The position numbers and the translations under genes were made by a program. Source: Nitrospirota bacterium (GTDB lineage: Bacteria; Nitrospirota; Thermodesulfovibrionia; Thermodesulfovibrionales; UBA6898). Taken from it: DNA of 64,000 bases. Location: NCBI GenBank assembly GCA_016214855.1, contig JACRMT010000010.1, positions 62,001-126,000 of the forward strand. The letters are read 5' to 3'. A model generated the notes under the pieces. The model did not search any database, was not told the origin of the DNA, and saw only the letters and a program-made list of their open reading frames with translations. Positions 43,366-63,545 of this stretch are shown in pieces (the first letter of the stretch is position 1; every line of letters starts with the position of its first letter).

Positions 43366-43488
43366 AAAAATCTCCCCTCACCCCTCTTTGTCAACCAACA
43401 GTAGGTGCTTTAAGCAAGAGGGGAATCATACCTCCCTTTCGCAACCAGAAGTAGGTGCCTTACGCAAGGGAGGACAGGAGGGATTTTT
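43366..43488. repeat. Double hairpin repeat element (two 43-bp units)
   Basis: Unit 1 (43381-43423) and unit 2 (43431-43473) are each 43 bp. Each has complementary ends (CCCCTCTT with AAGAGGGG; CCTCCCTT with AAGGGAGG) around a shared core AGTAGGTGCYTTAMGCAAG. Outer near-inverted ends AAAAATCTCCCC (43366) and GGAGGGATTTTT (43477-43488) enclose both. It fills most of the 301-base gap between the fmdE-like gene and the carboxynorspermidine synthase gene. A related copy lies at 61862-61965. The rest of the gap holds a TATAAT at 43566 that may serve the downstream gene. Confidence 0.75.
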
Positions 43489-61174: not shown

Positions 61175-61765
61175 ATGAAAAAGACTTTATTTATTACGTT
61201 CTTGCTGGTAATGCTCTCTGGACTCTCGGGCTGCGGGTATAACACCATGCAGGCAAACGAAGAGGCTGTGAAGGCTGCCTGGGGAGATGTGGAAGCATCG
61301 TATCAGAGAAGGAACGATCTTATCCCCAATCTTGTAGAGGTCGTAAAAGGTTATGCCAAGCATGAGAAAGATACACTTCAGGCAGTGACCGAAGCACGCG
61401 CAAAAGTGGGAACCATCCAGGCATCCAAGGATATTCTCAATGACCCCAAGGCATTGACCCAGTTCCAGGAGGCTCAGGGCGCCATGTCCAGCGCTCTTTC
61501 CCGTTTGATGGTCGTTGTCGAGAAATACCCTGAACTGAAGGCAAACCAGAACTTTCTGGACCTGCAGCACCAGCTTGAGGGGACTGAAAACCGGATCAAT
61601 GTTGCCCGCACCCGCTTCAACAAGTCTGTCGAGACCTTCAATGTTTCGATCAGGATATTCCCGAACAGCCTTACGAACTCCCTGCTGTTGCACCTGAAAC
61701 AGCGGGAGGCTTTCAAGGCTGAGGCAGGCGCGGAGAAGGCTCCGAAGGTTGAGTTCAATAAATAG
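61175..61765 (+). CDS. lemA: LemA-family lipoprotein
   Basis: A 196-residue protein. The signal and lipobox (LSGLSGC) are followed by the LemA domain: [48 protein letters not shown]-like helices and [20 protein letters not shown]. LemA proteins form helical bundles at the envelope; function is poorly known. It is typically followed by TPM-domain genes, as here. GGAGG precedes the ATG. Confidence 0.92.
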
Positions 61766-61861
61766 ACACATGAAGACCAATAGAAGAGCTTCTCGTTCGA
61801 TTTCAGAATAACAACTGACGAATGACAACAGAGAGGATAGCAGTGCTGTCGGCGGACAAAT

Positions 61862-61965
61862 CCTCCCCTTTCCAAGGGGAGGCTAGGTGGGGTATTGGTA
61901 AATTATCACAATACCTCCCCCAACCCTGCCTAAGGCACCTACTTTTGGTCCGTGGAAAGGAGGGG
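61862..61965. repeat. MITE-like hairpin repeat element upstream of the TPM gene
   Basis: A ~104-bp element with near-inverted ends, CCTCCCCTTTCC (61862-61873) and GGAAAGGAGGGG (61954-61965). Internal stems are CCTCCCCTT/AAGGGGAGG (61862-61882) and GGTATTG/CAATACC. It contains GCCTAAGGCACCTACTTTTGG, the reverse complement of the core found in both units at 43381-43473. Its right arm supplies the AGGAGG just before the TTG at 61969. Confidence 0.7.
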
Positions 61966-61968
61966 CTA

Positions 61969-62865
61969 TTGCATGCATCTCTCGTATCGATATTCCTGCT
62001 ATTGATGGCAGTATTGTTCGCCGTTCCGGCCCATGCCCTTGAGGTCCCTAAACTGACCGGCTATGTGAATGACTACGGCAGCATGCTCTCGCCCCAGGCA
62101 AAGGCAACGCTTGAACAGGAACTGCGGGCCTTCGAGCAGTCTGATTCTACTCAGCTCGTTATCGTCACAATCCCCTCTTTACAGGGGGAAGTGCTTGAAG
62201 AGTTCAGCATCAAGATTGCACAGGCATGGAAGATCGGGCAGAAGGGAAAAGACAATGGCATCATCTTCCTTGTTTCAAAGGAAGACAGAAAATTGCGCGT
62301 TGAGGTTGGCCGTGGGCTTGAAGGCAGGCTCACCGACCTCATGGCAGGCAGGATCATAGATCTCGTGGTAAAACCCCGGTTCAAAAGAGGCGACTTTGAT
62401 GGCGGCTTCATTACCGGCGTCCATTCCCTAATCGATGCAACACGGGGCGAGTTCAAGGCAGATCAGCAGACAGGCAAACGGCAGGGAGCTAAGGGTTCAC
62501 AGGGTATTTCCCGTCTCTTCACATTTATCATATTCTTTGGCATTGCCCTGCTGATGCTCGGAAGCGTTTCAAAGTATCTTGCAGGAGCCGCAGGAGCTAT
62601 AGGTCTTCCTGCGATTGTCTCTTTGCTCCTCTCACCTGTCGGTCTTGTTGCAGCTATTATTCTCGCCGTTATCGGTCTCGTTGCCGGACTGATCCTGCCG
62701 GCCCTCTTTTCAGCGGGGGGCAGAGGGGGTGGATTTGGTGGCGGATATTATGGAGGAGGCTTTGGCGGAGGTGGCGGCGGCTTCGGTGGAAGCAGCGGCG
62801 GCGGTAGTGATTTTGGCGGAGGAGGAGGAGACTTTGGCGGCGGCGGGAGTTCGGGGGATTGGTAG
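61969..62865 (+). CDS. TPM-domain protein (YgcG-like) with Gly-rich tail
   Basis: A protein of about 298 residues from the TTG at 61969. A signal peptide (SLVSIFLLLMAVLFAVPAHA) precedes the TPM domain (about 25-150; YVNDYGSMLSPQAKATLEQE, DNGIIFLVSKEDRKLRVEVG). Then come two hydrophobic stretches and a Gly/Ser-rich tail of about 60 residues (GGGYYGGGFGGGGGGFGG). The start is chosen because AGGAGG (61958-61963) lies five bases upstream. The frame is also open back to an ATG at 61822 through the repeat element, which would add a basic N-region. It sits beside lemA and a second TPM gene. Confidence 0.8.
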   Translation: MHASLVSIFLLLMAVLFAVPAHALEVPKLTGYVNDYGSMLSPQAKATLEQELRAFEQSDSTQLVIVTIPSLQGEVLEEFSIKIAQAWKIGQKGKDNGIIFLVSKEDRKLRVEVGRGLEGRLTDLMAGRIIDLVVKPRFKRGDFDGGFITGVHSLIDATRGEFKADQQTGKRQGAKGSQGISRLFTFIIFFGIALLMLGSVSKYLAGAAGAIGLPAIVSLLLSPVGLVAAIILAVIGLVAGLILPALFSAGGRGGGFGGGYYGGGFGGGGGGFGGSSGGGSDFGGGGGDFGGGGSSGDW

Positions 62866-62912: not shown

Positions 62913-63545
62913 ATGAATAACGCAAAGACATTCTTTACAGAAGCGGAAAAGGACCGGATCGCAGAAACAACGCGGTCGGTCGAATGCTGCACGATCGGTG
63001 AAGTGGCTGTCATGGTCGTTAACAGCAGCGATGAATACCGTGAAGCATCCGTGCTCGGGAGCGTGCTTCTTGGCTCAGGTATCAGCCTGCTTGTATCAGA
63101 AGCCTTCCTCAATGCATCGTTAAACTATTTCATCCTCCTCAGCTTTTTCTTCTTTCCGCTTATGTGGGCAATGTTCAAGTATATGCCCGCATTAAAGACA
63201 TCTTTTGTCGGCAGACACAGGCTGGAGAAGGCCGTTCAAGAGCGGGCATTGAGGGCCTTTTACGAAAAAGGTCTGTATAAAACAAAGGCGAACACAGGCG
63301 TGCTCTTCTTTATTTCCCTTCTGGAACACAAGGTATGGGTGCTGGCAGACAAAGGTATCTATGAAAAGATCGACCAGCAGACACTCGATACCTATGCGCT
63401 TACCGTTTCCCGAGGCATAAAAGAAGGCCGTGCATGCGATATGCTCTGTCAGGCCATTAAAGCCTCAGGATCTGTCCTTGCAGAGCATTTCCCGATGACG
63501 CCCGGAGATACCAATGAACTGTCGAACCAGGTGATGACCGAGTAA
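62913..63545 (+). CDS. TPM-domain membrane protein, second copy
   Basis: A 210-residue protein without a signal peptide. The N-terminal part (FTEAEKDRIAETTRSVECCT, then IGEVAVMVV) begins the TPM fold. Two membrane helices (about 45-85) interrupt it, and the C-terminal part continues (TGVLFFISLLEHKVWVLADK). The layout suits an inner-membrane partner of the secreted TPM protein upstream. It is the last gene of the lemA cluster. Confidence 0.8.
   Translation: MNNAKTFFTEAEKDRIAETTRSVECCTIGEVAVMVVNSSDEYREASVLGSVLLGSGISLLVSEAFLNASLNYFILLSFFFFPLMWAMFKYMPALKTSFVGRHRLEKAVQERALRAFYEKGLYKTKANTGVLFFISLLEHKVWVLADKGIYEKIDQQTLDTYALTVSRGIKEGRACDMLCQAIKASGSVLAEHFPMTPGDTNELSNQVMTE

Follow-up and report, generated by a model that had tools for sequence, protein, structure and literature searches.

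A gene stretch between lemA and a TPM-domain gene appears to tolerate palindromic repeat insertions that are translated through

Introduction

Rickettsia palindromic elements (RPEs), reportedly the subject of Ogata et al. 2000 and 2002, are the closest described precedent for repeats that become part of a protein. The sections of a review that deal with them (PMC10969869) describe several families of short palindromic repeats that lie in frame in genes and are translated as part of the product. The enterobacterial repeat units RU-1 (ERIC), RU-2 and RU-3 were found fused to ORFs, according to the portions of Delihas 2007 (PMC2759123) that concern such fusions. G/C-rich intrastrand triplex motifs are abundant bacterial repeats that are treated, in the corresponding part of PMC4666352, at intergenic sites.

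Here we analyzed a window, meaning the whole 64,000-nt stretch of Nitrospirota DNA under study, in which a palindromic element lies between lemA and the TPM domain encoded by the next gene. As with an RPE, this element is open in the frame of the 347-aa TPM ORF, and the junctions of relatives argue for read-through. RPEs, as characterized in those review sections, belong to Rickettsia, occur in many unrelated genes and carry an ORF with a conserved peptide, whereas here several kinds of repeat occupy one junction in Nitrospirota and deltaproteobacterial lineages, in differing frames and before a signal peptide. The conserved encoded peptide typical of RPEs was not found among our inserts, one repeat type being read in different frames across species. 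The RU fusions are single enterobacterial cases, and the portions of PMC2759123 devoted to them describe no case in which differing repeats recur at a single orthologous leader of a signal peptide. The window family resembles MITEs, as outlined in part of PMC10969869, in being short and dispersed (43 own-genome matches); many of its copies have terminal inverted ends, and the window copy has no clear outer ends. REP or RAYT-associated repeats comprise a palindrome of 20-40 nt and a linked REP-associated transposase, whereas the window unit is longer. The likeness to triplex motifs is that both are G/C-rich genomic repeats, a comparison made by description only against the relevant part of PMC4666352, in whose text the word "Nitrospira" is absent. 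Across the junctions that we collected, the inserts differ between species and seem normally to be translated, with initiation close to the lemA stop.

Methods

Loci were found via the TPM gene and not via the leader, so the leaders were not selected for openness. A TPM-domain search gave matches in 29 of 41 genomes and, at a stricter cut-off, in 41 of 230 genomes of the class; a scan of named genomes yielded 38 loci, mostly from Nitrospirae MAGs and deltaproteobacterial lineages. Deduplication left 60 lemA-TPM junctions, 57 of which passed a TPM identity of 55% (L097, L099 and L101 fell below it and were left out). Not entered were L059, which had no TPM match, L061, L062, L063, L081 and L098, which had no lemA match, and loci without a TPM gene downstream of lemA on the lemA strand; L082 was left out for its negative gap. 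The 57 junctions represent species or copies rather than independent events, and several leaders share inserts by descent or family. Many genomes of the set are drafts, and the intergenic control set is small, with few matched controls for the claim of a hot spot.

The main shuffle test used the 42 leaders that retained at least 30 nt after trimming of the signal peptide (105 nt) and removal of three near-duplicates. These (L133, L074 and L051) were dropped for the shuffle and folding tests and kept in the 57-junction frame and start counts. Leaders were searched against their own genomes at E<=10 (G000), E<=0.01 (G177) or E<=0.001 (the other six). The alignment of the window's repeat family comprised 30 loci, and the profile was built from 19 of the copies. 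Pairing energies (dG) were calculated against a 16S tail whose sequence we take to be the correct one.

Results

The features of the window locus are collected in Table 1. The first-pass annotation had reported a 104-nt repeat forming a hairpin, ending at 61965 and overlapping the 5' end of the TPM gene, and our searches bear this out. Searching the genome with 61855-61970 returned 43 matches at E<=10 and 27 at E<=1e-5 (self included), a profile made from 19 other copies recovered the window copy at E 1.9e-28, and the strand from 61840 to 61975 folds more stably than its shuffles (z -2.6). The element, read from the sequence as CCTCCCC...GGAGGGG and lying in frame within the TPM ORF, is a member of a dispersed repeat family. 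Equally sound were the observations that AGGAGG (61958-61963) in the right arm precedes the in-frame TTG at 61969 by five bases, and that the frame reads through the element to an ATG at 61822. The Pfam TPM_phosphatase domain occupies residues 82-205 of the resulting ORF, and the mature part of the protein likely begins near LEVPKL.

Table 1 Features of the lemA-TPM locus in the window (dG in kcal/mol)
Feature	Position	Strand	Basis or remark
lemA (LemA family gene), upstream of the junction	61175..61765	+	PF04011, E 1.2e-56
13-codon ORF, out of the TPM frame	61770..61811	+	begins 4 nt past the lemA stop
TGA in the TPM frame, closing the upstream leader	61816..61818	+	second TGA at 61771
TPM-domain ORF with the element in frame, 347 aa from ATG 61822	61822..62865	+	PF04536, E 2.1e-39
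Start candidate: GAGAGGA (61831-61837) and GTG 61843-61845	61831..61845	+	dG -6.5
Repeat element core, 104 nt, in frame	61862..61965	+	sequence, genome search, alignment, profile
Nested ~25-nt module TGCCTAAGGCACCTACTTTTGGTCC (bounds approximate)	61926..61950	+	in some family copies, alone elsewhere
Repeat-borne AAGGAGG (61957-61963) and TTG 61969-61971	61957..61971	+	dG -12.1; start proposed by the first-pass annotation
Hydrophobic core and c-region of the likely signal peptide (HASLVSIFLLLMAVLFAVPAHA)	61972..62038	+	translation, comparison with relatives
Second TPM-like gene, downstream	62913..63545	+	PF04536, E 3.6e-07; tight spacing in relatives

The aligned family copies consist of C-rich and G-rich hairpins around an A/T-richer middle. 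Their units are about 100-150 nt long, and many of the 19 copies used for the profile extend beyond 104 nt to inverted outer termini (CTTCAGTTA.../...TAACTGAAG), which in the window copy are decayed or absent. The window copy also contains the nested module, which is absent from most family copies. An inverted 26-nt copy of this inner module, 88% complementary, stands at 43444-43469 of the window, away from any full element. By a crude ORF listing, most of the 30 family copies seemingly lie between long ORFs; a long family-related palindrome (ACCACCCCTCCCATCCTCCCC... and its mirror) was seen inside a long ORF at L028 (G000:C13:69838-69880 region). The G-rich right arm with AAGGAGG is common across the copies wherever they sit, and the Shine-Dalgarno-like match is therefore a property of the repeat and not a change specific to this site. 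Rfam gave no RNA family match at gathering score across the whole window, and NCBIfam gave matches below cut-off only. One such match was that of the LemA protein to the MamQ magnetosome model (89 vs 250 bits).

Turning to relatives, we found that the segment separating the lemA stop from the TPM signal peptide varies between species and includes several kinds of repeat, with the TPM frame open. At least one further copy in the own genome was present for all eight long leaders tested. Self included, the matches numbered 43 in G000, 7 in G003, 63 in G011, 17 in G021, 2 in G001, 53 in G165, 3 in G176 and 29 in G177, the inserts of G001 and G176 having just one or two further copies. The single short control leader, from G005, matched itself alone in its own genome. 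By eye, the inserts fall into CCTCCCC-, TGTCATTCC-, TCGCAATGACA- and TTCGACAGTTCTAAG-type (our own names). No insert was visible at four TPM genes without an adjacent upstream lemA. One repeat type, TTCGACnGTTCTAAGC..., occupies the junction in L039, L041, L046, L047 (assigned by eye), L038 and L134, from several genera, and some of the host genomes hold only one or two matches in all; an insert of this type may be an old one, retained since it is part of a coding sequence.

Over the 57 junctions, 77 to 304 nt separate the lemA stop from the TPM domain; at the next junction, between the TPM gene and the second TPM gene, 48 of 55 cases have a spacing of -4 to 11 nt. The whole gap is free of stops in the TPM frame in 40 of the 57 junctions, as against 5 and 1 for the remaining frames, and the stops summed over all gaps number 33 in the TPM frame vs 149 and 178 in the others. 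In seven of the 57, less than 80% of the gap is open. The 42 trimmed leaders contain 29 in-frame stops, where 2000 dinucleotide shuffles gave 63.7 +- 7.2 (minimum 42), and 25 of them are stop-free, where the shuffles gave 10.5 +- 2.6 (maximum 20). Skipping the first 35 nt after lemA left 32 leaders with 12 stops vs 35.6 +- 5.5 (minimum 19). An earlier test on 37 leaders (23 stops vs 54.7 +- 6.4 in 1000 shuffles, minimum 35) is superseded by that on 42. Control stretches of 150 nt before the lemA start showed no frame bias, with 4, 6 and 3 of 53 stop-free in the three frames. We also considered a programmed lemA-TPM fusion or frameshift and rejected it, since the distances from the lemA stop to the domain are spread over all three residues modulo 3 (17, 18 and 22 of 57).

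In 47 of the 57 junctions, an in-frame ATG, GTG or TTG occurs no more than 40 nt from the lemA stop. An ordinary signal-peptide start is expected 20-45 codons before the domain, and that interval is devoid of in-frame ATG, GTG and TTG codons in 7 of the 34 long leaders; two of these seven have candidates outside it, L039 with TTGs 16-17 codons and L038 with a GTG 46 codons before the domain. An insertion of exactly 33 nt, in phase throughout, distinguishes the related leaders L070 and L074. A repeat type present at the junction in G177 also occurs there in G024 and G017, with most of its aligned positions (125 of 140 and 110 of 113) read in a different phase. In the two long pairs of greatest similarity, substitutions fall on the codon positions as 3/3/3 and 1/5/3; there is no third-position excess and hence no sign of selection on the encoded peptide. 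The simplest reading of these patterns would be that openness is required and sequence is not.

The window itself is an exception to this pattern and not a clean example, its own leader not being open from lemA. In-frame stops at positions 61771 and 61816 make the start that relatives commonly have, beside the lemA stop, unusable in this frame, and the TGA at 61816 confines the TPM start to 61822, 61843 or a site inside or after the element. We examined ATG 61770 as a homologous lemA-adjacent start and rejected it: it is in a different frame, closed at 61809-61811. Its short ORF is a possible remnant of the usual lemA-adjacent start, and its peptide, MKTNRRASRSISE, has RRAS in common, by eye, with the G022 and G009 leaders. 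A derivation of ATG 61822 from another repeat, suggested by an ATGACAACAGAG match to a G003 repeat tail, was likewise dropped: the frames differ, and homology could not be demonstrated.

Two readings of initiation in the window compete. The first-pass annotation held that a mobile repeat had replaced the original start: the repeat would supply the ribosome-binding site, TPM would begin at TTG 61969 and the element would be 5' untranslated. Our results back this idea in part. Such an arrangement is a serious contender that falls somewhat short of even odds. AAGGAGG with its 5-nt spacer gives TTG 61969 the strongest ribosome-binding signal of the TPM start candidates (-12.1 kcal/mol vs -6.5 for GTG 61843, -3.6 for TTG 61945 and +0.2 for ATG 61822; lemA's own start has -9.5), and in-frame stops lie upstream. 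Strong repeat-arm matches before a start at signal-peptide length also occur in G011, G021 and G164, which with the window makes 4 of the 34 long leaders, and G164 (L071) is another junction with upstream stops. There, a GTG/TTG follows directly on a G-rich repeat arm (dG -11.6). Set against this, G011 and G021 carry such motifs, yet their frame stays open from lemA, and the inserts of relatives are seemingly read through from a lemA-near start. TTG is a weak start codon, and the AAGGAGG is mostly paired in the predicted RNA (mean unpaired probability 0.30-0.39 across four contexts). Of the 66 forward frames of 22 other copies only 10 are open, yet the element here is open in the TPM frame. 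Its codons give basic residues (VRGKEG) directly before the hydrophobic core, and a signal peptide begun at TTG 61969 would have no Lys or Arg there. We therefore mildly favor read-through from 61822 or 61843, which on these sequence features seems slightly likelier than an even chance, with TTG 61969 somewhat below it. A start at 61822, which the annotation had named as speaking against its model, is thus possible and, together with 61843, the mildly favored option. No relative was found with the same junction lacking a repeat; the closest, G003 (TPM 91% identical), has a different repeat there.

Folding bears on a further explanation, in which the hairpins persist for what they do as RNA (in processing, stability or attenuation between lemA and TPM), the open frame being a secondary matter. 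Hairpins of REP type located between the genes of an operon are known to affect mRNA, and z<-2 was reached by 20 of the 42 leaders, compared with 5 of 38 stretches upstream of lemA and none of 42 within lemA. We nevertheless consider this explanation unlikely: the leaders have no common structure, the inserts being of different kinds or, in short junctions, missing, and the frame-specific shortage of stops would be left unexplained. Ordinary intergenic insertion with an open frame by chance is very improbable overall, for although repeats are common in these genomes and chance openness (about 10 in 66) may hold for the window alone, it is already contradicted for the junction set, where none of the 2000 shuffle sets reaches the observed stop shortage and frames +1 and +2 are not open.

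Discussion

Our analysis suggests that the lemA-TPM junction is probably a place where short palindromic repeats have landed repeatedly and that ribosomes normally read through the inserts. In the mechanism that we propose, TPM initiation would take place beside the lemA stop, coupled to lemA translation, and for this reason an insert would survive only if it were in frame and stop-free. The added residues would be tolerated because they precede the signal peptide and would be removed with it on cleavage. The window may represent one step further: its CCTCCCC-type element is in frame, and initiation would have moved because the stretch before the element now has in-frame stops, either to 61822 or 61843 (read-through, which we prefer) or to the repeat-borne AAGGAGG and TTG 61969.

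A broader version of this proposal, to which we give about even odds, is that the pre-signal-peptide TPM leader beside lemA serves as a general landing pad, where lemA coupling forces the frame and cleavage makes the residues harmless. Successive unrelated repeats would enter, be translated and decay in many lineages, and some G-rich arms would seed new starts when the upstream leader breaks, as in the window.

In-frame insertion of this kind seems not to be confined to TPM, since at L108 (G003:C105:13734-13778, locus ~1501-1545) a TGTCATTCC-type repeat appears in frame within a long ORF, reading as LSFPLVGNPSEERLRTSRSDRLG amid ordinary protein sequence. Translated in-frame palindromic repeats are known; what appears to be new is the recurrence of different ones at one signal-peptide leader. 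In a literature search with most subscription journals outside its scope, we found no recognised account of repeats at the lemA-TPM junction and none of different repeats recurring at one signal-peptide leader.

For such secreted proteins, start-codon calls would be unreliable when made from the signal peptide or the strongest ribosome-binding match alone. With both empty and filled versions of one orthologous site, the junction would offer a naturally occurring set of in-frame repeat insertions, allowing one to ask how mobile repeats turn into coding sequence and how new start sites arise.
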